In this document: positions 8,595-64,000 of the stretch, in pieces
Layout: each line of letters starts with the position of its first letter
How positions within the stretch are numbered: position 1 is the stretch's first letter
IMG/VR virus record: IMGVR_UViG_3300037247_001169
Span: 1-64,000 of that record
Length of the DNA: 64,000 nt
Reading direction: 5' to 3' (one strand)
DNA from: a virus
Program-made: the position numbers and the translations under genes
Notes under the pieces: model-generated
The model's input: the letters and a program-made list of their open reading frames with translations, nothing else
Databases searched by the model: none
Told to the model about the DNA's origin: nothing

Positions 8595-8865
8595 CGGGGG
8601 CTCCGGTGGGATGCCATTCGGCAGATAACCTGTGGTCGCTACGACAGAGCCGATCCGGGCCCGCTTGCAACAATCCGCCGTAGGATAGATGGGCCAAACG
8701 ACGTTCTAACTCCTGACGCATCATGCGGTGCGACACAAGGCTATGAGATTGTTTGTTCACGAGTTCTCCAAGCGTTCGTCCGGGCCAGTGTCTCACCAAT
8801 TGCAGGACCGCCACATTCGCGCGATGGCTATCGGATGCGAGCTGCGCATCGGATAGAGGGCTCAC
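8587..8865 (-). CDS. Winged-helix-like protein, 92 aa
   Basis: GTG start overlapping the RecT stop (GTGA). Residues about 15-65 (VLQLVRHWPGRTLGELVNK...) have the helix pattern of a small winged helix domain. Absent from the right-hand region, where RecT is followed directly by the helical protein. A DNA-binding accessory of recombination is a reasonable guess. Confidence 0.65.
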   Translation of the reverse strand: MSPLSDAQLASDSHRANVAVLQLVRHWPGRTLGELVNKQSHSLVSHRMMRQELERRLAHLSYGGLLQAGPDRLCRSDHRLSAEWHPTGAPDA

Positions 8866-10037
8866 GTATTCTCCCCGGGGGCTCCGGACTTGGACGTCTT
8901 TTCCAGCCGCGCCCTGACCTGCTCGTACATCTCCCTGAGTTTCCCCGGGTCGTTCACGGAATAGCACGCCCCGATATGCGGCCAGTCCTGGCCGGCCGCC
9001 AGGCTCCATTGGTGAAGCAACTGATTGGCGTCGGGAGTATTGAGTTCCGCGAACACGGTCGTCAACCCACGTTGCAGCACGCCGACCGAAGCCGGATCGT
9101 CTGCGGGCGCCTCGGGTGCAGGTTCGGCCGGCGGGGGCGCCGCGGCCTTCGACTTCGAGCACCTGTCCGCGTGCTGGTAACCGCGTCCGTGCTTCTTGCC
9201 GCCGCACTCAGGGCAGGTTTCGACTTTGGCTGGCGGAGGTGGGGGCGGTTCGGGTTCCGGGGTCTCGGCTTGCGTTTGTGGCGCGCCGTCGACGTCGGCA
9301 ACGAACGTGCCACCGCCCGGATCGGGCATCGTCACGGTTTCCGGCTCCGGCGCCGCTTCCGGCTGCTTCGTGACCTTCGACGCGTCGAAGGGTTCGCGCG
9401 GGGCCTGGGTTTTGCCACTGAGGTCAAGGCCGTTGAGCACATCGTCAACCGCCATTTCCTCGCGGGAGTAGAGGCCCTTGGTGATGTCGGGAAACGTATA
9501 ACGCAATCCGAAGCTGCGGGCGCGTCGCAGGAGCATGTGCTTTGGGTACGATCGGTATGTCTGTTTATCCCATAGCTTCGCTTTCTTGGCGTCGGCCACC
9601 GAGAACGTCTCTTTGCGCGGCTTCCCGCCGATGCGACCAACGATGCAGTAGGCTTCGAGTGTGTCGCCCTCGCCAGTCCATCCTTCCTCAAACACGGTTT
9701 GGTCGAAGAGCGACGTCTTGCGCATGCACAGGCCCAAAAGCATGTCGCCCCAGACCGTCGGCCGGCCATTGATGACGGCGATATTCTGAACGGACTGCAC
9801 GGGATCGATGCCCAACTCGGCGCCGAACTGCATAGCGACAACAATCCCCTGCTGGTTCATCCCGTCTGGCGCCCAACCGGCCTTGCCGACGCAGGCGGCG
9901 AATCGCCAGTAGTCGTCCATCGTCTGCAATTGCATGCCGAGCTGCCCGCTTGGCGGCGGGGTGCTTGGTACTGTCGACCGCACTTGTTCGCGCGCTGCTG
10001 CCGCCGTCTGTTCCACTGCTGCTGTTGCCGTCGTCAT
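8862..10037 (-). CDS. RecT-family single-strand annealing protein
   Basis: 391 aa. The core (about residues 30-220) carries AMQFGAELGIDPVQSVQNIAV, then GRPTVWGD, the classic RecT-family signature; the C-terminal third is proline-rich with a CPECGGKKHGRGYQHADRC zinc-like cluster. It would coat ssDNA and anneal homologous strands with the exonuclease encoded at 10698-11282. A close homologue is at 62867-64000. ATGA overlap with the upstream gene. Confidence 0.9.
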   Translation of the reverse strand: MTTATAAVEQTAAAAREQVRSTVPSTPPPSGQLGMQLQTMDDYWRFAACVGKAGWAPDGMNQQGIVVAMQFGAELGIDPVQSVQNIAVINGRPTVWGDMLLGLCMRKTSLFDQTVFEEGWTGEGDTLEAYCIVGRIGGKPRKETFSVADAKKAKLWDKQTYRSYPKHMLLRRARSFGLRYTFPDITKGLYSREEMAVDDVLNGLDLSGKTQAPREPFDASKVTKQPEAAPEPETVTMPDPGGGTFVADVDGAPQTQAETPEPEPPPPPPAKVETCPECGGKKHGRGYQHADRCSKSKAAAPPPAEPAPEAPADDPASVGVLQRGLTTVFAELNTPDANQLLHQWSLAAGQDWPHIGACYSVNDPGKLREMYEQVRARLEKTSKSGAPGENT

Positions 10038-10705
10038 TCTGTCCTCCCTGCTGTTCTCGTGTCCTTGTACACTTCGATTCCGCCGACTTGCTCTTCGGCC
10101 AGCTTGCCCATCGATGTCGCCGCCGCGTCGATGGCCTTCATGTTCGGCATCAGGTATGCCCGCTTGATTTGTGATGCGTTGACGATCCTAGCCTTCCATA
10201 CCGTGCGATGCGAGATCCCCTTGACGTTCGGCACCTCGCTACGGATCACGGGGGGGGGCGGTGATGGCTCCGCGGCCACCATCGCCTCAGCCGCCTCCGG
10301 CATGTCCGCCTGTCGCAATTCTTCGGCCTTGCGCGCTTGCTCTTGTGCGAGACGTTGCCGTTCGCGCTCGGCCGCCTCTTGCTCGCGGCGCACGCGGGCT
10401 TCTTCCTCGCTCTTGTATCTGCCCATCTTGCCGTCAAACAGATCTTGCGCCACCTTAAACGGCCCGAGACACGTGTTCTCAAGAGCGCAGATAGACTTGT
10501 GGGCCCTATTGGCATCAGCCTTCGCTTCCTGGAACAGTGCCTTCACTGCCTTGATCCGGGACCGACAGCTCAGCGTATGTTCGCCGGCTATCTTGTACGA
10601 CGGCGCATCGGCCACCTCAAAAGCCGTGGCAAGCCGAACGAGGCTCGCACTTGCGGTGTCGAGATCTTTCGTGTCCGGCGCTGTGATCGTCGCCAGTTCA
10701 ATCAT
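10034..10705 (-). CDS. Coiled-coil recombination accessory protein
   Basis: 223 aa. A long Glu/Arg/Gln coiled coil (about residues 95-140) is followed by Pro-rich linker and a compact C-terminal domain (ISHRTVWKARI...IEVYKD). Proteins of this layout commonly sit between RecT and exonuclease genes in phages and are thought to assist annealing. Overlaps both neighbours, so one operon. Confidence 0.7.
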   Translation of the reverse strand: MIELATITAPDTKDLDTASASLVRLATAFEVADAPSYKIAGEHTLSCRSRIKAVKALFQEAKADANRAHKSICALENTCLGPFKVAQDLFDGKMGRYKSEEEARVRREQEAAERERQRLAQEQARKAEELRQADMPEAAEAMVAAEPSPPPPVIRSEVPNVKGISHRTVWKARIVNASQIKRAYLMPNMKAIDAAATSMGKLAEEQVGGIEVYKDTRTAGRTE

Positions 10706-11282
10706 CCTTTGCTCCCTTGTTTCCCCGGTAGTTGTAAGCGTTCAGGTAACTCAGCCACCCGGCGGCGTCCGCAGGGTCATCGTGCTCTACCCACTTGGCT
10801 TTGCCATTACGACCGAGGTAGACGCAGCCTCGCACGTTAACGCCTATGCAACATTGCCTGTAGCCCTCGGTCTGCAACGGATGCCACCACTCAGGGGCGC
10901 CGGTTTTGATGTCGAGGAGGACGGTTGCTAGTCCAAGGTTCAAGAACGAACCACGTCTATCAAGCGTCCCGGCATAGCCGAGCCTCGCGTTACCGACCAT
11001 GACTTGCGTTAATGCAGGCACAAAGCGCGTTTCCGCCCGAAACGCGATCCACGCCTTCGCATACCCAATGTATTGCGGGCAGTAGATTTCGGCGGCTTCG
11101 ATGTCCAGCTCGCCCTTGTCATGCAGCTCCGTCAGCGTATCGATTGCCTTGCCCCGTTCGCGCCCCTCTTCGGTGTACCAGCGGGTGTCCACGCAGTTCA
11201 TCACCTTGAGGATATGCGTCACGCTCGGGACCGGGAGGCCGTTGATCTTGTACGTGTGAGTTGGCTCGTGGAATTCAATCAC
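10698..11282 (-). CDS. PD-(D/E)XK-like exonuclease
   Basis: 194 aa. GYAGTLDRRGSF followed by LLDIKTG is the D...D-x-K core of RecB/lambda-exonuclease-type nucleases, with SVTHILK near the N-terminus as often found in that family. It would resect dsDNA ends to give ssDNA for RecT. Shorter than many relatives. The pairing with RecT and the coiled-coil protein supports the call. Confidence 0.8.
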   Translation of the reverse strand: MIEFHEPTHTYKINGLPVPSVTHILKVMNCVDTRWYTEEGRERGKAIDTLTELHDKGELDIEAAEIYCPQYIGYAKAWIAFRAETRFVPALTQVMVGNARLGYAGTLDRRGSFLNLGLATVLLDIKTGAPEWWHPLQTEGYRQCCIGVNVRGCVYLGRNGKAKWVEHDDPADAAGWLSYLNAYNYRGNKGAKDD

Positions 11283-13417: not shown

Positions 13418-16072
13418 CTACGAAACGGTGGTAGTGTCGTTTATCAGGTTCAAAGCGCCTAGCGCGTCCAAACAACTCTTCAACGCCCCCTCGGGATTAT
13501 CCCGAGCCCCGGATACAGTGGGCTTCACGATCGCCGTAGCCCCGCCGAAAAATACCATCTTGCTTGTGGCTTCTATGCGGATCAACGTGTTGGTTCCGCT
13601 GTCCCTGATGTTGAACCGGCCCGCCGTCGCGTATTCTACGCTTCCTCTGGCCGACCCACTTGGCCCCCACTCGCAAACCGAAGCAGTGAACGCCATCGCC
13701 TGAACGGTATTGGCCTGGAAGAAATACCCATCCCCGGTCGGGACATTGAAAATCGTACCGGCAGCCGCGTCGTGCTTGATGTAGCTGCCGGCAGCGGCCA
13801 ACGTGATTTGCGAGCCGGGCGCTGACAGTACCACGTCACCGGCATTCACCACCAAATCGCCGGCTTCGACCGTAACATCGAGGTTGCTCTCGATTGTGAG
13901 TGCCAGATCATTCGTACCGGCGAAATACTGCATGTCGCAGGCGGTCGTACTCCTCATCGTGGCTTTCCATTGCCCTACCAGGGCGTAGGCGCCACCCTGG
14001 TAGGAATAGAATGAAAAGCCGAACAGCTTCGTGCCGCTTACCACGTTGGCCGGTCCTGCTTTGGCTCGCCGATAGGAATGGAAAATCGAGTTACCCGCCG
14101 TATCGCTCTCAACCGTCAGGTACAATCCCGCGCTGCCACCCTCATTGTAGATGTACACATTCTTGTTCGCCGCTCCCGGCGAGAGGGTCGCGTTGACGCA
14201 CCAATTGCCGTTCTCGTCGACACGGCATTTCTCGGTGCCGGCGAGCTCGAACGTGATGGGGCCGGTGCCCGACGAGCCAATGGTCAACGCCGCGTTCGCT
14301 TCGCCGGTCGCCGTTATCAGTGCGGGATCACCGGTCGCCGCGTTCTTAACCGTCACTTCGTTCACGGCGGAACCGACGGAGGCGAACTTGAGAATCTCGT
14401 TGACGCTGCTGTCGACGATGCCGTCTTGGAACTCGACGCCGCCCCCAAACACCCAGTGGGGCGCTGCACGCAGCCACGCGAGGCCGCCGGTGGCCGCGTC
14501 GTTTTTGCATTGGATGACGACATTGTCGGCCAGCGCGGCATGGCCAAATATGCCGAGGCCCGCGGCATCCCTCATCGTCCGATCCGCACCGGCAGACACC
14601 TGAACCGTATTTGCGGCGCCGGATGCAGCCGCGGCGGTTACGGCAAGGCCGAGATCCAGATCCGCGTCCGGTGCCGTGATAGTGCGCGTATTCCCGGCGG
14701 TTATCGCTGAGAGCTGAAAATCCATCTCTTTGGTAACGTCGCCCTCGTCGAAGAGATGGAAGGCATTGTCGGCGAACTCCGTTGTAACACCGCTGGCGCC
14801 GCCGGCCGCCGTCAGCGGTGTAGCGCCCCGCAGATCCACGGTAGACACGTGCGCCCAGGTGCCGCCGATCAAACTCATAGTTACGCGGGCTATGAGGAAT
14901 CCGGTTTGCGAATCGACATTGAATTCGCTGGGGATCCTAAACACATCGTAGCCGTTGATATCCCCTTCTGCCGATGCCTGCTTATTGTAACTCCCGGTCG
15001 ACAAGTTCATCGCCAACGGAGAATACTCGCCGCCCTTGTTGGCAATCCCCCAGATTACCCAGTTGAAGTATTTCTTAACCGCTACACCGTTAGCATCATT
15101 CGTCAACGTCTCCAGGTCCGTCACGGGATCATACGCAGCGCCGTTCTGATTGATGATCAGAATTGCATCACCCGTCGCGGTATCCAGCGCAGGTGTTGTG
15201 TGCTTGTGCATCTGGCGAACGACGCCAGCCGTCACTGCGGCGTCGACCGTCGCCCCGCCACCGGCGACGGTCATCGTTAGGACAACCCCGGTTTTGTAGA
15301 TCGCATGTCGCGACCGTATAGCATCGGTTATGTGAACTATGTGCCCCAGACCGCCGGTCCCCTGAGCATGCTCGTTAATGTTGTGATTGGCGTATACGCC
15401 CTTGGTCTGAACGTATCCCGCTGAAGGAACCAGGAAGTAGCCGATCTTGATGTGCGCGATTGGGTCCGCCGGCCAATCGCTTGTAGACTTCGTCAGCGCT
15501 TTCGTGCTCTGTAGTATGTAAATGAAATTACCTGTCGGGCTGGTGTCTGAACCCGCATCGAGAGGAATGGTGGCAGGGCTCGGCGTGCAATCCAATGTCG
15601 TCGCGCCGTCGGAGAAGAGCATCGTCAGATCGCCGCCCCCGGCCTGCTCGATCGACATCGTCACGACCGTACCGTTGCTCGTGACCAAGGCGTTGAAAGA
15701 CTCGATGAACGTGCCATGGAAGAATGGGTGTATGTGTGCAGACGCAGCGGCGCCAATGTCGGTCAACACATTGGCAGGTGAGCGCCACTCGAGACCCTGG
15801 TCCTCGGAGTCCTTGACCCGGAGCATGTAGAGATCGGTCCCCGGCTGAAAGGCGGCGAAGTCGCTGTCTGAATCACTGACCACGAACTGGCCGGGCGTAC
15901 TCGCCTGAATGTTCCCGCCCTTGGCTTCCGCGCCCGTCGCCTGGGTGAACGTGACGGTAAACGGATTGCTCCCAGACAGATAATTGATATCAGCGGAAAG
16001 GCGCTGTAGCGCAAGGCGCACTTCCTCGAACGACTTGACGTTGGAGCGCACTGGGACAATCGACCTTGGCAT
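13418..16072 (-). CDS. Tail fibre / receptor-binding protein, 884 aa
   Basis: A short N-terminal helix (residues 10-35), then long runs of small, beta-favouring residues (Gly, Ala, Thr, Ser, Asp, Asn) with repeated AGDxVxxAGD-like turns and triple-helix-friendly texture near residues 470-780. This composition and the final position in the structural block mark a trimeric fibre. It ends in a short helix (ALKSCLDALGALNL) as in many fibre proteins. No peptidase or chaperone domain is visible. Confidence 0.75.
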   Translation of the reverse strand: MPRSIVPVRSNVKSFEEVRLALQRLSADINYLSGSNPFTVTFTQATGAEAKGGNIQASTPGQFVVSDSDSDFAAFQPGTDLYMLRVKDSEDQGLEWRSPANVLTDIGAAASAHIHPFFHGTFIESFNALVTSNGTVVTMSIEQAGGGDLTMLFSDGATTLDCTPSPATIPLDAGSDTSPTGNFIYILQSTKALTKSTSDWPADPIAHIKIGYFLVPSAGYVQTKGVYANHNINEHAQGTGGLGHIVHITDAIRSRHAIYKTGVVLTMTVAGGGATVDAAVTAGVVRQMHKHTTPALDTATGDAILIINQNGAAYDPVTDLETLTNDANGVAVKKYFNWVIWGIANKGGEYSPLAMNLSTGSYNKQASAEGDINGYDVFRIPSEFNVDSQTGFLIARVTMSLIGGTWAHVSTVDLRGATPLTAAGGASGVTTEFADNAFHLFDEGDVTKEMDFQLSAITAGNTRTITAPDADLDLGLAVTAAAASGAANTVQVSAGADRTMRDAAGLGIFGHAALADNVVIQCKNDAATGGLAWLRAAPHWVFGGGVEFQDGIVDSSVNEILKFASVGSAVNEVTVKNAATGDPALITATGEANAALTIGSSGTGPITFELAGTEKCRVDENGNWCVNATLSPGAANKNVYIYNEGGSAGLYLTVESDTAGNSIFHSYRRAKAGPANVVSGTKLFGFSFYSYQGGAYALVGQWKATMRSTTACDMQYFAGTNDLALTIESNLDVTVEAGDLVVNAGDVVLSAPGSQITLAAAGSYIKHDAAAGTIFNVPTGDGYFFQANTVQAMAFTASVCEWGPSGSARGSVEYATAGRFNIRDSGTNTLIRIEATSKMVFFGGATAIVKPTVSGARDNPEGALKSCLDALGALNLINDTTTVS

Positions 16073-43063: not shown

Positions 43064-43190
43064 CGATGTGGTACGAATGCTGAAGCTCGCAGTCGAACGA
43101 GAAGGCACGGCGCGCCAACGATACCAAGACCTCGTGAGTAAGTTTTAGGGGCCAATCAGCCGCCCCGGCGGCGATTTACGGAGGAGTATT

Positions 43191-43445
43191 GTGAGACGCA
43201 ACCAACGCTACTACATGGCCAACGGATTCCACCACACCGAGACCTACGTGGTCGCCAAGCGCGGCCGCGTGTCGACTGCGGCCATGATTGCAGCGGAGAA
43301 GCGGCTGTGCAAACAGGACGATTGCAAGTGCGGCATGAGTGAGGCCAGTAATCCAACCGACGGCCAGCGTCACGGGATACAGGGCGAGCCAGAGCTGTGT
43401 CTGGTGAATGATGGCGGCGGGTACTGGCGATTGGAACGACGTTAG
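43191..43445 (+). CDS. Basic Cys/His protein, 84 aa
   Basis: GTG start at 43191 with GGAGGAG upstream. Contains KRLCKQDDCKCGMSE, a three-cysteine metal-like site, and a C-terminal GGGYWRLERR. The leader GGCGGCGATTTACGGAGGA is repeated before the next gene (about 43460), so both may share translational control. Function unknown. Confidence 0.65.
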   Translation: MRRNQRYYMANGFHHTETYVVAKRGRVSTAAMIAAEKRLCKQDDCKCGMSEASNPTDGQRHGIQGEPELCLVNDGGGYWRLERR

Positions 43446-43484
43446 GACCAGCCGCACGGCGGCGATTTACGGAGGAACGATGTG

Positions 43485-45027: not shown

Positions 45028-45060
45028 GTTGGGCTGGAACCGAAACCCGCTCGTACCTTT

Positions 45061-45665
45061 TGGTTGCCTCGCTGAGAGTGGCACACTCGAGCCTTTTGGT
45101 TGGCTTCCGGTTTTTGACTCGCTTCCGCCAGATGGTTGACTCCGGCATTCTGGCTCGCTCGGGATCAGTGGGTGCCTGATGAAGCGTGGCTCGCTCCGCG
45201 GCTCTGGTTGCCTAAGTCCTCTGTGGCACGCTTGACTCGTGTGGGTCCCTTCTGAATCATGGCTCGCTTACGCAGCTTGGGTGTCTACTGGCGAATGGCT
45301 CGCTCGGCTCGCCCTGGTTGCCTTGTACAGCGTGGCTCGCTCCGAGATTGTGGGCGCCTTCGTCTATCTGGCTCGCTTGTATTCGATGGTCGCCTTGCTT
45401 ATTCTGGCTCGCTCCGATCTTCTGGTTGCCTCTCAACGTTTGGCTCGCTCTCACCGAATGGGTGGCTGTTTCGGCCTGGCTCGCTTACGCTCTGTGGTTG
45501 CCTGAGTCATCATGGCTCGCTCCCGCGTCCTGGTGGTCTCGGAAAAACTGGCTCGCTCCCGCGCGTTGGTTGTCTCAATCCGCTTGGCTCGCTTACTGTA
45601 CCTGGTTGTCTGTGCTGCACTGGCTCGCTCGTCACAAATGGTCGCCTTTCGCGCCATGGCTACGC
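45061..45665. repeat. TIGR array 1 (dual-repeat, 9-nt spacers)
   Basis: On the plus strand TGGCTCGCT (A) and TGGTTGCCT (B) alternate, each followed by a 9-base spacer, so one A-spacer-B-spacer unit is 36 bases. I count 17 A and 17 B copies and 33 spacers; two spacers are 10 bases (45214-45223, 45305-45314). A copies are almost invariant in the middle of the array, B copies vary (TGGTCGCCT, TGGGTGCCT, TGGTTGTCT). Ends are degenerate (TGGCACACT, TGACTCGCT on the left; TGGCTACGC at 45657 covers the tas stop codon). Confidence 0.9.
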
Positions 45666-46703
45666 AACGTGAACCTTGCCCAGCTTAGCCTCCGAGTACG
45701 GCGGGGCAACCTCCAGACCCTCAATCTCCCGCCATGCCTTGTACAGATCGATCAGGAACATCTTGATCATGTACCGGATGGCCATGTTGTGGCGCCTCAG
45801 CTTGGACGTCACAATGTGGCCGTCCTCATCCTTTTTCTTGTCGTTGTGGATGCCGTACTTCGTGTGAGACTCCATCCGGTGCTTGTAGTCGTAGTAGACC
45901 TTCGCGTAGGGCGAATCGCCAGCACGAAGGAACGACGCCCCGAGCACTCCCACGAGCTTCGTTTTCAAGAACGGGTTGAACGTGATGCCCATGCGGGTCG
46001 CGGGCTTCCCGTCCTTGTCCTTGTATTCGACCTCGCGCAAGTGCTCCTTTTTCTTCGATCGGCCGCTGCTCGCCGCCTGGTAGCGAGCTACCGACAGATC
46101 GTCAACGATCAGCAGAAACCCGTTGCCATGCTCAGACATCTTGGCGTTGGGCGGTGGGCCGATGAAGGCCCTTGGGACCGTCACGTCTTCCGTGAACGTC
46201 TCCACAAGAGTCCAGTAGGTTACGCAATCAAGCCCAGCGTAGGCCCACATGCTCGACGGATACCGCGCCTTGTGGATGTCGAACTCGCTGACGATGACAC
46301 CGGCCATTGCCGGGCCGACTCCCTTGACCTTCAACAGGAACTCATTCCAGATTGCGAATTCCGTCAGAATCCTGCCTAACCTGGAGAAATGGTCCGTCTC
46401 GGCTTTCTCCAGGCCGACGTATTGGGCCAGCAGACACAACTCCGTGTACGTGCTGATCACCTCGTCGCCCTTGAACGTCGCTTGCCTCGGGAACGTCGTC
46501 ACGCCGTCCGTCAGCTTCTTGTACCGCATACGAAGATCGGCGAGTACCGCTTTGGCGTCCTCTTCGATCTCCTCTTCTTTCTCGCCCGGCTTCTGGCCGA
46601 GCTTCGCCTTGAAGTTTCCTACGATCCGATTGCCCATCTGGATTCTGAGCTTTTGGATGTCGTAGGCTCCGCGGACTACGGTCCGCAATTGTTCACGTTG
46701 CAT
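45660..46703 (-). CDS. tas: Tas-family (Nop-fold) RNA-guide protein, no nuclease domain
   Basis: 347 aa. A central helix-hairpin-helix (KVKGVGPAMAG, residues 125-135) followed by WAYAGL and a C-terminal region (SKLRRHNMAIRYMIKMF, WREIEGL) resemble the C-terminal half of IS110 transposases and the Nop domain of box C/D proteins. The DEDD RuvC-like N-terminus of IS110 is missing, and no HNH or other nuclease motif is seen, so it resembles the nuclease-free TasA type. AGGAG precedes ATG 46703. Flanked on both sides by arrays of 9-base repeats and spacers. Confidence 0.8.
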   Translation of the reverse strand: MQREQLRTVVRGAYDIQKLRIQMGNRIVGNFKAKLGQKPGEKEEEIEEDAKAVLADLRMRYKKLTDGVTTFPRQATFKGDEVISTYTELCLLAQYVGLEKAETDHFSRLGRILTEFAIWNEFLLKVKGVGPAMAGVIVSEFDIHKARYPSSMWAYAGLDCVTYWTLVETFTEDVTVPRAFIGPPPNAKMSEHGNGFLLIVDDLSVARYQAASSGRSKKKEHLREVEYKDKDGKPATRMGITFNPFLKTKLVGVLGASFLRAGDSPYAKVYYDYKHRMESHTKYGIHNDKKKDEDGHIVTSKLRRHNMAIRYMIKMFLIDLYKAWREIEGLEVAPPYSEAKLGKVHVA

Positions 46704-46720
46704 TCCGTTGCTCCTGAAAA

Positions 46721-47231
46721 GGGTTCGCTTTGCCGTTTTGGGTGTCTAGTTTGTGGTGGCTCGCTAATCCGCACTGGGCTCCTCGTGGACTTTGGCACGC
46801 TCATTACTTCCGGTTTCCTCCCAGCACTTGGCTCGCTTAACGCTCATGGCTGTCTTTTAGCTCTTGGCTCGCTCTTGGCTTCTGGTTGCCTCTCAACGTT
46901 TGGCTCGCTTGTCACGCGTGGGTGACTGCAACACTCTGGCTCGCTTCGTACACACGGGCGTCTTGCCTCCAATGGCTCGCTTTCACGCTCTGGTTGTCTA
47001 CGATGACATGGCTCGCTCGTGCTCACTGGGTGCCTTAAGCCAGCTGGCACGCTCTTTTCGGTTGGTTGACTGTACTCGCTTGGCTCGCTCGTGTTCTGTG
47101 GTAGCCTCACGCGCGCTGGCCCACTTGGTCACCTGGTCGCCTTTGCAATTCGGTACGCTTGATGTTCATGGTTGCCTTTCAGATCCTGGCTCGCTAAGTA
47201 GCCTTGGGCGACTCCGAACCTATGGCTCGCT
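46721..47231. repeat. TIGR array 2 (dual-repeat, 9-nt spacers)
   Basis: Same A/B alternation as array 1: 15 A and 14 B copies, 28 spacers, starting from a degenerate GGGTTCGCT just upstream of the tas start. Two spacers next to weak repeats are 8 bases (47126-47133, 47143-47150). More decayed than array 1 (CGGGCGTCT at 46955, CGGTACGCT at 47151). The stretch B-CTCAACGTT-A occurs in both arrays (45423-45449 and 46883-46909). Confidence 0.9.
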
Positions 47232-47273: not shown

Positions 47274-47462
47274 TCAGTCGTCCTCAGCCTCACGCCCCGC
47301 TTGTTCAAGACGCGCTTGGATATATTCGTCCTCGCAGCACGCCATCGCGCCCCAGTCGGGATTCGCCGAGCCGCCAACCGGTTCACGCGTCTTCGTGTCC
47401 ATCGTGTACAACGTGCCGCACTCAGGACAAATCCAAATCTCAGTTGGCGCTTGCCAGATCAT
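47274..47462 (-). CDS. Zinc-ribbon protein, 62 aa
   Basis: WICPECGTLYTMDT and AMACCEDEY give a CPxC...CC pattern of a small zinc ribbon, then a charged helix. It is the last gene before array 2 in the minus-strand operon. Function unknown. Confidence 0.7.
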   Translation of the reverse strand: MIWQAPTEIWICPECGTLYTMDTKTREPVGGSANPDWGAMACCEDEYIQARLEQAGREAEDD

Positions 47463-52449: not shown

Positions 52450-53016
52450 TTATTCTGCCGATAGGACGACACCAACACGGTTCTTGGCATTGCTCAATTC
52501 GTCCCAGTCGACAAACAGAAATTCGTTTCCATCTGTCGGGTTTTTGCGACTATGGCGTCTGATCCATGCACCGTCGCCGAGATGCGCCCCGACGAACTCG
52601 TACAGATCCTTCGTGTAGCATATTCCGGCAGCCAAAAAGGCTCCCCGCCGGCGCGGTTCTGCGACGTATGCGTGTACTGTCAGCGTAGGATATAACCATC
52701 CAGAACGGATGGCGTCTATTCGCTTTCGCAGCTCCGTCTCGGCGCCCGTCGTCCGCTTTGACCGTATCGTGAACGTATACCACGGCTCACCCCATTGCAC
52801 GCGACTCGCCAAGCCCCTCATACGGCCATTCGCTTGCTGGATATGCCATCCGTCTATGCCGGCCAGCGTATCCAAGCATTGGCTCAAACTCTTCTCCGTC
52901 ACGCTTTCAACCGCCACCAAAGTTCCATCTCCGCATTTGCCCTTGATCGCGGGCCACACAACCCGCTCGAAATCGTAGGCACTATCGCTAAGGTCGCATG
53001 CAATGTCACTCCGCAT
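52450..53016 (-). CDS. Hypothetical protein, 188 aa
   Basis: Start MRSDIACDLSD overlaps the methyltransferase stop by 11 bases. Beta-alpha pattern with conserved-looking FERVVWPAIKGKCGDG, WYTFTIRSKRT and FLFVDWDELSNAK. Could be a small nuclease or host-modulating protein; not recognised. Confidence 0.6.
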   Translation of the reverse strand: MRSDIACDLSDSAYDFERVVWPAIKGKCGDGTLVAVESVTEKSLSQCLDTLAGIDGWHIQQANGRMRGLASRVQWGEPWYTFTIRSKRTTGAETELRKRIDAIRSGWLYPTLTVHAYVAEPRRRGAFLAAGICYTKDLYEFVGAHLGDGAWIRRHSRKNPTDGNEFLFVDWDELSNAKNRVGVVLSAE

Positions 53017-54190
53017 GCACGTCCACTCCGCGCTCTTCTGCGATATCGCACATCTCACGCGAGCTATCGCATCCGAGCCCGATGCGACCTAGCTTTTTCG
53101 CTGCGAGCAAGAACGTCCCCGTCCCGGCAAATGGGTCTACGATGACCCCACCCTCGGACGTGCTGTGACGTATGAACCGCTCGGCCAGCACGTCTGGCTT
53201 CTGCCATTCGTGAAAGCGGTCGCCCTGACGACCGTCCGGGGCACGAACGTCCTGCACGCTCCAACGTTCGTTGTGGATCGGACAGTTCAGGTCTGGCGCA
53301 TCCCCCCCGACGAAGTAGAGGACCGCTTGCCAGTTGGCCTTGTAGGCGCCCTTCAGTGACGGACCCAGCGTATTGCGGTATGTCCACACCAGGACCTGGG
53401 CGAGCGACACGTCAGCACATCGTTGGGCCGCCCCAAAATAGGCGTGAAGCTCCACCGGATAGGCGCCGATGCAGACGAATGCTCGGCCGGTTGGCTTGAC
53501 GTGCTTGATCGCTTCGGGCAACCAGGCGTTGGCGAAAGCCTCGATGTCCGGTATGTCCGTAGCGTAGGGCGGGTCCGTCAACAGCAGGTCGCATTCGGGC
53601 TGCTCGCCGAGCCAGTCCTCCCAGCCAGCAAGATGCAATTCGGCCTTGCCTTTGGCGGTCCCCGCCGCCTGCTTTTGAAGGTACAGAACGTCGGCCTGAG
53701 CCAGCGTCGTACACTTGCCGTCCTTGACGGCCTTGAAGATGGCCTTCTGTCGCTTCCGGTCATCGTTCAGGCGAGCGAGACGATACACGTCGCCGGTCTT
53801 CAGTACCCGTCCGGTGGCGGATGCTAGGTCTATCCAGCCCTCGCGTAGCTCCCCGAGGACGTGTACGCCCTGCCAGCGAGATGATTGCTTATGGTTGATG
53901 CCTAGATCTAAAAGTGGGCTGCCTTCTTGGCAGTCCACTTTTTTGCCTACCCCGCGGGCACCATGCTGCTTAGGTATATCCTCCAGCAGCTCGCCAGCTC
54001 GGCCCTCAGCCCGTATCCTGAGCTTGCAGACCTCATCTTGAACCTCGCGGGTTTCGCCGATCTCGCGGGCGTAGGTTTGCAGCGCCTTCGACTTGTCGAT
54101 GATGACCTTCACCTCTGGGATCGTGGTCGCCTGCGACAACGCCGACCGCATCGCGTCGTAAGCTACTATGTTTGTGTCTGCTTTAGCCAT
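53006..54190 (-). CDS. DNA methyltransferase with ParB-like N-terminus
   Basis: 394 aa from MAKADTNIVAYD. Residues 1-170 are helical and resemble ParB/KorB-type domains often fused to phage methylases. The catalytic part has TDPPYATDIPD (motif IV, DPPY at 206-209) and DPFAGTGTFLLAAKKLG (motif I, SAM binding), so an N6-adenine or N4-cytosine enzyme. Probably protects phage DNA from restriction. Right-hand early region only. Confidence 0.8.
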   Translation of the reverse strand: MAKADTNIVAYDAMRSALSQATTIPEVKVIIDKSKALQTYAREIGETREVQDEVCKLRIRAEGRAGELLEDIPKQHGARGVGKKVDCQEGSPLLDLGINHKQSSRWQGVHVLGELREGWIDLASATGRVLKTGDVYRLARLNDDRKRQKAIFKAVKDGKCTTLAQADVLYLQKQAAGTAKGKAELHLAGWEDWLGEQPECDLLLTDPPYATDIPDIEAFANAWLPEAIKHVKPTGRAFVCIGAYPVELHAYFGAAQRCADVSLAQVLVWTYRNTLGPSLKGAYKANWQAVLYFVGGDAPDLNCPIHNERWSVQDVRAPDGRQGDRFHEWQKPDVLAERFIRHSTSEGGVIVDPFAGTGTFLLAAKKLGRIGLGCDSSREMCDIAEERGVDVHAE

Positions 54191-54214
54191 CCCTGACTCT
54201 CGTTTCACCCTATA

Positions 54215-54254
54215 GGAAAACAACAAACGCCCCGGCCGAACGCTGGCCGGGGCG
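54215..54254 (-). terminator. Intrinsic terminator upstream of the methyltransferase gene
   Basis: Perfect 10-bp stem CGCCCCGGCC/GGCCGGGGCG (54228-54237 and 54245-54254) with a 7-base loop, followed on the minus strand by TTTGTTGTTTT. Stops transcription coming from the 54-64 kb genes or from RNA 2. Confidence 0.7.
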
Positions 54255-60182: not shown

Positions 60183-60255
60183 GGGCCGGTGCGGGATTTG
60201 AACCCGCGTCTTAGGCTCTCCAGGCCCACGTTGTGCCAGACTCAACCAACCGGCA
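60183..60255 (-). tRNA. tRNA with anticodon GGA (Ser-type), short variable loop
   Basis: 73 bases on the minus strand. Acceptor TGCCGGT/ACCGGCC (first pair T-C mismatched), D stem GTTG/CAAC, anticodon stem TGGGC/GCCTA with loop CTGGAGA, T arm GCGGG-TTCAAAT-CCCGC. Anticodon GGA at 60221-60219 reads UCC/UCU. The variable loop is only AGAC, unlike ordinary serine tRNAs. No counterpart in the left region. Confidence 0.75.
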
Positions 60256-60460: not shown

Positions 60461-60547
60461 CTACGACTGCACCCACGCCGTGAGCCAATCTAACCATCCC
60501 ATTGCCCACGCAAGCCACGCCAACAGAAGCGATACAAGTCCGGTCAT
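60461..60547 (-). CDS. Transmembrane mini-protein, 28 aa
   Basis: MTGLVSLLLAWLAWAMGWLD..., starting in an ATGA overlap with the methyltransferase stop. Almost entirely hydrophobic and Trp-rich. Supported by the overlap and composition; no homologue in the left region. Confidence 0.5.
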   Translation of the reverse strand: MTGLVSLLLAWLAWAMGWLDWLTAWVQS

Positions 60548-61581
60548 TTGCCAATCTCCTCAAAGGTAAGTTGTCCGTCTACGTCTGCTATCACCGGCAA
60601 CGGCTCGGGGTTGGATACCCGATGCCGCGCCTCTTCCACTCGTCTGTGCATAAGCTCCGCTTGCGATTTGCGGAGGTCGATACCGATTGAGTTGCGTCCT
60701 GCGAGAATCGCCGCCGCAAGCGTCGTTCCGGATCCGCCGAACGGGTCAAGCACTACACCGTCTGGCGGGCAGAAGCTGCGGATCCAAAAGTCTGCCAGGG
60801 ACTCGGGAAACGGTGCTTCGTTTTCGTGAGCTAAGTCGGAGCCCATGTGCCCCTTGCCCACCGTGCAGGGAATGAAGTCCATCGCCTCGAATGGAATGAC
60901 GTTGCCGGGGTTTGCTTTGGACGGCGGATCGTAACCCGTCGCATGGCAGCCGTCCGGTCGGCGGCTCTTATTGCGTACCCGGCCTGCCTCTGTGACAACG
61001 TGCGACGGCCGCTTGTGAGTGTCGCGTGTACCGTCCACCTTGCGATGCCCCACCGCGCCTTCGCATCCGCCCCACTGATTGCGGCGGGTGCCATCCGTAA
61101 GCCGATGACTCATCGCGCCGCCCGGCGCCCACCTCGGAGGATGTCCCGCCGCCGTGTTGTCTGACCAGGGCAGTTTCCCGCGCTTCCGCGTCGCACACAC
61201 GATGAACTCGTAGTCATTGCGAAGCCAATCGGGACCGCCGCTGCCAGGGATTCCGACACGATGGAATGCGGACGGCTTACGCAGGAACATGCCGCACTTC
61301 TGGAGTTTTACGGCCAGGTGAAGAGGTGTAGCAGAGTACGAGTAATTCTTGGTCCGCCCCTCGACCACCCACGCTACAAGCCCCTTGCACACGCGCAGGC
61401 ACTCGCGGAAGCGCACGAAGGCCCACTCGACCCATTCCGAACCCTCAAGTTTGAAATCGACCCCGTAGGTCCGCGCTGCCTCATAGGGCGGCGAACCGAA
61501 GACCAGGTCTACGGAATCCGTCTTCATCGCCCGCATCTCTTCCAGAGAATCACCGATTAGGATGGTCGTCTCAGCGGTCAT
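60544..61581 (-). CDS. DNA methyltransferase (SPPY type), 345 aa
   Basis: MTAETTILIGDSLEEM... Motif IV is SPPY (residues 30-33), common in N4-cytosine methylases, and motif I is DPFGGSGTTLAAAILAG near the C-terminus; motif order is that of the beta class. The middle holds a target-recognition region. Start overlaps the upstream stop (ATGA). Right-hand region only, probably anti-restriction. Confidence 0.85.
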   Translation of the reverse strand: MTAETTILIGDSLEEMRAMKTDSVDLVFGSPPYEAARTYGVDFKLEGSEWVEWAFVRFRECLRVCKGLVAWVVEGRTKNYSYSATPLHLAVKLQKCGMFLRKPSAFHRVGIPGSGGPDWLRNDYEFIVCATRKRGKLPWSDNTAAGHPPRWAPGGAMSHRLTDGTRRNQWGGCEGAVGHRKVDGTRDTHKRPSHVVTEAGRVRNKSRRPDGCHATGYDPPSKANPGNVIPFEAMDFIPCTVGKGHMGSDLAHENEAPFPESLADFWIRSFCPPDGVVLDPFGGSGTTLAAAILAGRNSIGIDLRKSQAELMHRRVEEARHRVSNPEPLPVIADVDGQLTFEEIGK

Positions 61582-61859
61582 GCCTTCACCGTCAACACGC
61601 ATTCCAGCGGGCCGCCGCCGGGCCTAAGCGTCATGCCAGCCTTGCGCAAGTAGCGAGGTCCCAGTTCTACGCACAGCGACGTGACGAAATCGCAACCCGA
61701 CGGTTCAATCCACTCCGTACTATCGCGAGCACCACGTATGGGTTTAGTGCCGATGTATACTTCATAGCGGCAATCCTTCGCCGTCGACCGAGCCCAGTTC
61801 TTGGATCGCCGCGTTAACCACAGCGTCATCGTTTCCGGCTTTGCTTTCTTCTTACTCAT
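61578..61859 (-). CDS. Hypothetical protein, 93 aa
   Basis: Basic N-terminus (SKKKAKPETMTLWLTRRSKNW) and beta-rich middle with WIEPSGCDFVTSLC. Coupled to the methyltransferase. May be a small companion of the methylase; not recognised. Confidence 0.65.
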   Translation of the reverse strand: MSKKKAKPETMTLWLTRRSKNWARSTAKDCRYEVYIGTKPIRGARDSTEWIEPSGCDFVTSLCVELGPRYLRKAGMTLRPGGGPLECVLTVKA

Positions 61860-62543: not shown

Positions 62544-62877
62544 CCTTCGTCTCCATCGCGGCGCGGGCGATGCGGTTCATTGCCTCCGTTTCGTCACGGA
62601 TAGTGTCCAGGGCGTTGCCCGGCGTTGCACGGCCACCCAAACGATAGGCAGTCAAGAGCTTGTCCTTCGCGTCGATAATCCTGCGCTGACATTCCAGAAT
62701 CTCCCCCAGCGGCTCCACGTCGGCCTGGCCGACGGCTGTAGCGGCATTGAGTAATGCCAGAAGACGGCCATGCTCCTCCGCGTTGTGGCTCGAAGCCATC
62801 AACTCGGTCACCGCGTTAACGATGGCCGCGTCCCGCTCTTTCACCTTCGCCAGATATGTCTCGGTGTCACTGGGCAT
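62536..62877 (-). CDS. Helical protein of the RecT operon, 113 aa
   Basis: MPSDTETYLAKVKERDAAIV..., relative of 8310-8594. Shares GQADVEPLGEIL with it. Start overlaps the RecT stop by 11 bases. Recombination accessory inferred. Confidence 0.75.
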   Translation of the reverse strand: MPSDTETYLAKVKERDAAIVNAVTELMASSHNAEEHGRLLALLNAATAVGQADVEPLGEILECQRRIIDAKDKLLTAYRLGGRATPGNALDTIRDETEAMNRIARAAMETKGG

Positions 62878-64000
62878 CGGGGGCTCCGGACTTGGACGTC
62901 TTTGCCAGCCGCGCCCTGACCTGCTCATACATCTCCCTGAGTGTCACCGGGTCGTTCACGGAATAGCACGCCCCGATATTCGGCCAGTCCTTGCCGGCCG
63001 CGAGGCCCCACTGGTGAAGGAACTGATTGGCGGCGGGAGCATCAAGTTGGTCGAACGCAGCCATCAGGCCCCGTCGAAGCACGCCGATCGAAGCCGGATC
63101 GTCTGTGGGCGGCGTCTCAGACGCAGGTTCGGCCGGGGGAGGCGCCGCCGTCACTTTCGACTTCGAGCATCCCGGGCTGTGCTTGAATGCTCGCCCGCTC
63201 CTGCCCCTACCGCATTCTGGGCATCCCTTGACGGCCGGGGCTTCCGGGGCGGCTGGCTCTGGTTCTGGGGCCAGCGGATCGGCTAGCGGATGTTGGTCCT
63301 CGCCCGGCGGGACTTCACTGCCGTCGTCCATCTGGAGTTCCGGCTGCTTCGTGACCTTCGACGCGTCGAAGGGTTCGCGCGGGGCCTGGGTCTCACCACT
63401 GAGATCAAGGGCATCCAGCACATCGTCAACTGCCATTTCCTCGCGGGAGTAGAGACCCTTCGTCACGTCGGGGAACGTATAACGCAGCGCAAAACTACGG
63501 GCGCGCCGTAGCAACATGTGCCGTAGGTACGATTGGTATGTTTGCTTACTCCACAGCGATACCAGCTTGCCCTTTTCCCAGACCATCGCTTTCTTAGTGT
63601 CGGCCACCGAGAAGGTCTCGCGTCGCGGTTTCCCGCCGATGCGGCCGACGATGCAGTAGGCTTCGAGCGTGTCGCCATCGCCCGTCCATCCCTCTTCAAA
63701 GACGGACTGATCGAAGAGCGCCGTCTTGCGCATGCAGAGGGCCAAAAGCATGTCGCCCCATACCGTTGGCTTGCCATTGATGACCGCGATATTCTGAATT
63801 GCCTGCACGGGGTCGATGCCCAACTCGGCTCCGAACTGCATGCCTATTACGATCGCCGACTGGTTCATATCCTTCGGCGCCCAGCCGGCGTCTAAGACGC
63901 ACTTGGCGAACCGCCAAAAGTCCTCCATCGTCTGCAATTGCATGCCGAGCTGCCTACTTGGCGGCGGGATGCCTGGTACTGTCGCTCGCACTTGTTCGCG
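62867..64000 (-). CDS. RecT-family single-strand annealing protein, 5' end cut by the window
   Basis: At least 374 residues; the N-terminus is outside the window (the frame is open to 64000, and REQVRATVPG aligns with the left copy). GMQFGAELGIDPVQAIQNIA and GKPTVWGD carry the RecT signature. Zinc-like CPECGRGRSGRAFKHSPGC near the C-terminus. Homologue of 8862-10037. Confidence 0.9.
   Translation of the reverse strand, partial: REQVRATVPGIPPPSRQLGMQLQTMEDFWRFAKCVLDAGWAPKDMNQSAIVIGMQFGAELGIDPVQAIQNIAVINGKPTVWGDMLLALCMRKTALFDQSVFEEGWTGDGDTLEAYCIVGRIGGKPRRETFSVADTKKAMVWEKGKLVSLWSKQTYQSYLRHMLLRRARSFALRYTFPDVTKGLYSREEMAVDDVLDALDLSGETQAPREPFDASKVTKQPELQMDDGSEVPPGEDQHPLADPLAPEPEPAAPEAPAVKGCPECGRGRSGRAFKHSPGCSKSKVTAAPPPAEPASETPPTDDPASIGVLRRGLMAAFDQLDAPAANQFLHQWGLAAGKDWPNIGACYSVNDPVTLREMYEQVRARLAKTSKSGAPDAQ

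Follow-up and report, generated by a model that had tools for sequence, protein, structure and literature searches.

The DNA analysed here, referred to below as the window, consists of 64,000 nucleotides (nt) and covers positions 1 to 64,000 of the IMG/VR virus record IMGVR_UViG_3300037247_001169. At about 45048-47231 it contains a genuine TIGR-TasA system, a new member of an already described family. A first-pass annotation, made from the letters alone, had recognised a phage-borne TIGR-Tas-like system, which the homology to TasH and TasR and the TIGR-type arrays support, with TasA as the subtype. The anatomy of the locus, its homology, the covariation in its units and the dynamics of the arrays in its relatives were observed directly. 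We consider it probable that the system as a whole combines two guide arrays (31 units) with a nuclease-free Nop-domain protein that would act by unwinding or bending DNA and not by cutting it, with blocking as its likely role. The record is a virus contig of 72,880 bp, not the 50-kb phage genome assumed in the first reading, and encodes terminase-like, major-head-like and tail/virion proteins.

Anatomy of the arrays and of TasA

TIGR systems share a layout of box D and box C motifs, 9-nt spacers and 36-nt units (Faure et al. 2025, PMC12045711). On the plus strand of the window, a minus-strand gene is flanked by stretches in which TGGCTCGCT and a variable TGGTTGCCT-like repeat take turns; the former occurs in 23 exact copies in the window, each within the arrays, and its reverse complement is absent. 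These repeats had been read on the plus strand and are real, but the functional strand is the minus strand, as for the gene, tasA, and on it they correspond to an edge repeat, RAGCGAGCCA, and a loop repeat, AGGCAACCA. Both carry an early AG and a terminal CCA (box D and box C), and the arrays fit the TIGR layout with AG...CCA motifs, compared with UG...CCA in TasR. The alternation and the 36-base period of the earlier description hold, with a lag-36 identity of 0.527 in array 1 and 0.514 in array 2, against a mean of 0.28 (standard deviation 0.02) in shuffles, which places the arrays at a z of about 12-13, and at most 0.345 in the rest of the genome. The spacers are less uniform than had been stated, as parsing of the arrays gave 9 nt for all but four of them, two of 8 nt and two of 10 nt.

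Along the minus strand, array 2 (46721-47231; 14 units, each with an edge, spacer A, a loop and spacer B) is followed by a gap of 17 nt (46704-46720), tasA (45660-46703; 347 aa) and array 1 (45048-45661, the start being approximate; 17 units), head to tail. The gene is thus flanked by arrays both upstream (array 2) and downstream (array 1), as first described, and the 31 units hold 62 spacers, where at least 61 had been counted. A Shine-Dalgarno-like AGGAG was read directly at 46711-46715, and its presence in so short a gap suggests a shared transcript for array 2 and tasA. Array 1 has truncated edges at both ends by direct reading, the first of which (AGCCA) overlaps the tasA stop codon and the last of which is AGCG. 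The head-to-tail order, the 17-nt gap and this overlap suggest, at the level of sequence, that array 2, tasA and array 1 form one transcription unit.

With regard to the protein, a Nop-domain guide-RNA-binding function is predicted, and the Nop fold proposed at first reading is borne out by sequence, profile and structural comparisons. A phmmer search of the PDB with the window protein matched TasH (E 6.6e-9) and the TasR chain 9mty (E 4.3e-6), from an entry said to contain TIGR-TasR together with tigRNA and target DNA. The profile search that had been proposed, made with 54 relatives, gave stronger matches than the single sequence (9mty 2.7e-26, TasH 2.6e-18). The proposed structure prediction agreed: the AlphaFold2 model (predicted local distance difference test, 85.5; predicted template modelling score, 0.80) matched in the PDB, by Foldseek at E < 0.001, only TasH and TasR chains, the next match being ISCro4 of the IS110 family (0.22). 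The N-terminal 120 residues were modelled as helices, and no nuclease family (HNH, RuvC) was matched by the protein in Pfam and PHROG searches, which assigns it to the subtype TasA. The features that mark TIGR-Tas (TasA) membership are therefore present, namely a Nop protein of the Tas clade, two adjoining alternating repeats (8-12 nt) with 9-nt spacers, box D and box C motifs in edge and loop with an extra covarying edge pair, and no detected nuclease domain. The Nop domain carries an insertion of about 50-60 residues (codons of about residues 161-221, 46041-46223 on the minus strand), modelled with low to moderate confidence and absent from most marine TasA relatives; in the tree, the protein clusters with those of loci L125 and L126 (support 0.95).

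The repeats can be compared with those of one of the closest known systems, the TasH system that Faure et al. 2025 (PMC12045711) characterised in Salicola phage CGphi29. On its gene strand, SpTIGR has the edge AAGCGAGCCA and the loop AAGACAACCA; the edge is identical to that of the window over nine bases (AGCGAGCCA) and the loop differs at one base (AGACAACCA versus AGGCAACCA, 8/9 identical), which fixes the orientation and register of the window arrays. Both systems have the array on the gene strand and homologous Nop domains. SpTasH, however, has an N-terminal HNH nuclease, whereas none was detected in the window protein, and SpTIGR has one downstream array with a terminator-like end, whereas the window has an array on each side of tasA. 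The TIGR-TasA systems of Faure et al. 2025 (for example that of Flavonifractor plautii), compared by description only, resemble the window locus in their solo Nop protein, dual-repeat array and 36-nt units.

Covariation and array turnover among relatives

About 117 TasA and TasH loci (numbered with the prefix L) were gathered by scanning IMG/VR and species genomes; a 36-nt array was detected in more than 100 of them, and the pool holds 1,698 unique guide pairs, the window's included. In the 67 lineages with enough flank, the array lies downstream in 42, upstream in 12 and on both sides in 13; the array-gene-array layout emphasised earlier is hence present here but not special. The window's 31 units exceed the 5-15 that are most usual (PMC12045711), and L162, L122, L173 and L183 have 49-62 detected units per array. 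An aquatic phage TasA group (L005-L021, L124-L170) shows about 58-69% aligned TasA identity to the window protein and shares its edge and loop grammar, but many of its members lack the 50-60 aa insertion, and it has no guides in common with the window at up to 3 mismatches. One marine member, among the carriers of the conserved guide described below, has a portal like those of Pelagibacter phage HTVC023P, Roseobacter and other phages. In L039 (IMGVR_UViG_3300033145_000788), arrays at 9354-10902 and 14138-15982 have different repeat families (AGCGAGCCA/AGAAAYCCA and TGCGAGCTA/TGAAATCTA) and the contig has a second weak Tas match; judging from these repeats, it perhaps carries two TIGR systems.

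In the TasR structure, edge halves from opposite ends of the tigRNA pair with each other (PMC12045711). Across the collected units, position 6 of the 5' edge and position 3 of the 3' edge form a Watson-Crick pair in 1,494 of 1,567, compared with 1,390 (standard deviation 6.6) when edges were shuffled within arrays. Where the flanking edges are unlike at the partner position, the 6-3 pair is formed in 151 cases inside the tigRNA, compared with 28 inside a single physical edge. In the window, G2-C7 is kept in all 31 loops and, among the 29 units for which both edges were read, 28 have a Watson-Crick edge pair. The unit with its loop at 47134-47142 has deviating edges, AGCGTACCG and AGTGGGCCA, which singly contain no Watson-Crick 6-3 pair and together give an A-T pair, a compensatory change. 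This covariation supports the predicted tigRNA unit and strand. Thermodynamic folding of single tigRNAs was uninformative. The locus and its relatives provide a large set of phage guide arrays in which covariation by itself argues for the tigRNA unit.

Arrays turn over much faster than the DNA that flanks them, and the guides that are retained are near-identical. Loci with flanks at least 99% identical have almost the same arrays, which differ by single units in the interior (L016/L017, L174/L175); when flank identity is 85-96%, usually a minority of units is retained, mostly 0-1 base apart, and the others are unrelated. L016 and L018 (tasA 98.7% identical) have only 8 guides in common out of 26 and 31, mostly towards the two ends, and L007 and L008 (tasA 95.9% identical) have one. 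Related guides (1-4 mismatches) were 31-158 times commoner within arrays than between lineages, an overstated excess because some near-identical contigs were joined into one lineage in the tally. No clear codon periodicity was found between related guides of one array. These patterns seem to fit best with duplication and divergence of units inside the array and selection keeping some guides. In the window, the spacer A AACGTTGAG occurs on the minus strand in array 2 (46892-46900) and again in array 1 (45432-45440), with the different spacers B GAAGCCAAG and GAAGATCGG, respectively.

Predicted function, targets and competing explanations

By analogy with Faure et al. 2025, we infer how tigRNAs are processed, how DNA would be bound without cutting and what role this might serve. 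One or more array transcripts would be cut in the middle of the edge repeat to give 36-nt tigRNAs, one of which would be held by a TasA dimer via the box C/D-like motifs. At a DNA site of about 18 bp, spacer A would then pair with one strand and spacer B with the other, and the nuclease-free complex would unwind and bend this site. The most likely role would be that, during the phage's stay in the cell, selected sites of the host or of competing mobile elements are blocked for transcription or replication.

Several points weigh against this proposal. In Faure et al. 2025 (PMC12045711) no TasA is shown to block in this way, and its authors name as open the natural TIGR targets, the role of nuclease-free TasA and the growth of arrays. 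Characterised TIGR arrays start and end with truncated edges and typically have a terminator at the end (PMC12045711); no Rho-independent terminator was found after array 1. Furthermore, the paired-spacer search envisaged in the first-pass annotation gave no target for the 31 guides of the window in the phage's own genome or in 3.05 Mb of fetched sequence, and one window guide searched against IMG/VR had no match. Targets were taken as spacer A joined, with a gap of 0-2, to the reverse complement of spacer B, a geometry derived from the 8-nt 3' overhangs and the C-5 rule reported for TIGR (PMC12045711). Searches of 1.6 Mb of TIGR-phage contigs, and then of all 3.05 Mb, gave nothing exact apart from loci fetched by target patterns, and in 11 metagenome-assembled genomes holding relatives, part of their guides gave 16-17-nt matches at chance level only.

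A candidate target comes from the marine relatives. The guide CTAACCA[AG]A / ATA[AG]CTCAG is common to five marine lineages and has outlasted other guides; tasA is 75-83% identical between those groups, and this is the only guide they have in common. In the two-strand geometry it corresponds to ATAGCTCAG + T[TC]TGGTTAG, the D-arm of tRNA genes. The exact 18-mer ATAGCTCAG + TTTGGTTAG was found in 37 viral contigs, mostly inside tRNA genes called by ARAGORN, at positions 7-24, and of the 25 distinct called tRNA genes with it, 24 have it starting at position 7. Reading box D as AG shortens spacer A to 8 nt and turns the target into the 17-mer ATAGCTCAGTTGGTTAG; of 323 tRNAs picked without use of the pattern, 10 contain this 17-mer, in every case at position 7. 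With an optional T, the site pattern is ATAGCTCAGT(T)TGGTTAG, and 91 of 248 Bacteroidota genomes contain the 18-nt or the 17-nt form. When 1,688 guide pairs were compared with tRNAs, only the marine guide matched with 0-1 mismatch, and no match at this level came from the other geometry or from three permutations; the test is not independent, because the tRNA set was partly chosen by this guide. Spacer B reads in the tRNA sense and spacer A in the antisense direction, so that the guide suits two-strand DNA recognition and not pairing to one RNA.

We regard as evenly balanced the proposal that tRNA genes (the D-arm, on both strands) are a natural target of phage TasA guides, with one marine guide held amid turnover, and that change in the arrays consists mostly of whole units being gained, lost or diverging in the interior and not at one end. 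The tRNA target is a testable lead from sequence matches that belongs to the relatives and not to the window, and it would provide a concrete, assayable target in arrays that combine fast turnover with near-exact keeping of some guides. A second conserved marine guide, ACTTGGTCT + TGCCTTCAA (L008 at 8074, L016 at 9671, L018 at 11821), has its exact target in 9 IMG/VR contigs (L230-L238), 7 of them at an orthologous site in a T4-like-DNA-polymerase-like gene; with few independent events, at about chance, it was set aside as a real signal and retained as a lead only.

The five-lineage guide also favours a different explanation, in which TasA guides lead the phage to host tRNA genes, either to aid integration or excision or to shut these genes down. 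tRNA genes are classical attachment sites, and the position-7 location and the frequency of both site forms given above agree with such a role; Faure et al. (PMC12045711) speculate that TasA could aid integrases. However, the best tRNA match of the window guides has 2 mismatches and a gap, which is at chance level, no integrase came to notice in the part of the window's genes that was scanned, and phage-borne tRNA genes also have the site, and we consider this explanation rather unlikely. A phage tRNA-Ser(GGA) gene lies at 60183-60255 on the minus strand of the window.

Self-regulation, in which guides would bind the phage's own genome and time its genes, could be suspected from the position of the arrays and tasA among phage genes. 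It was already disfavoured and appears very improbable: in the 72.9-kb genome, with both geometries and gaps of 0-2, guides matched no better than permuted pairs. As no own-genome targets were found, the TIGR-TasA system should therefore act in trans.

Database names would instead make the protein an IS110-type transposase with a bridge RNA. The window protein has a weak match to PF02371 (Transposase_20), below the curated Pfam cut-off, and matches PHROG 4285, labelled 'transposase', at E 1.5e-34, and the two families of proteins do have a related Nop-like RNA-binding fold. On the other hand, IS110 transposases have a DEDD/RuvC catalytic domain and a bridge RNA, whereas the window has only PF02371-type matches and no IS110 catalytic family, long guide arrays in place of one bridge RNA, and no element ends as seen so far; together with the TasH and TasR matches in the PDB, where ISCro4 falls far behind, this makes the transposase reading barely tenable. 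PHROG 4285 and BFVD A0A6J5RE94 both match the window TasA strongly under the public label 'transposase', and they are likely to be misannotated Tas proteins. Finally, open reading frames cross the arrays, but an ordinary tandem repeat, coding or low-complexity DNA or a degenerate CRISPR array is refuted by the covariation within units and the constant association with a Nop protein, and deserves next to no credence: gene prediction by coding score places no gene there, no Rfam family matches the arrays at E up to 1, and, as had been argued from the start, there are two alternating 9-nt repeats with short spacers and not one long repeat (about 25-36 nt) with one spacer. The window proteins that were scanned (part of the genes) matched no Cas family.

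Other features of the phage genome

Around the locus, direct reading identified a 62-codon open reading frame with zinc-ribbon-like cysteine pairs (47274-47462, minus strand), which ends about 40 nt before array 2. Relatives of the phage by terminase and capsid comprise one 100% identical contig and two distant matches. The contig IMGVR_UViG_3300043256_000494 (among L048, L101 and L229) matches positions 18457-45007 with 100% identity along all of its 26.5 kb and stops some 40 nt away from the end of array 1, as would be seen if a variable or repetitive array had interrupted the assembly. A 304-bp repeat at 43160-43463 recurs about 27 kb away in the phage's own genome (70289-70592) with 85.5% identity. 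Additionally, the window encodes two RecT-like annealing proteins (8862-10037 and 62867-63991), the first followed by an exonuclease (10034-10705), and two N6/N4 DNA methylases (53006-54226 and 60544-61602).
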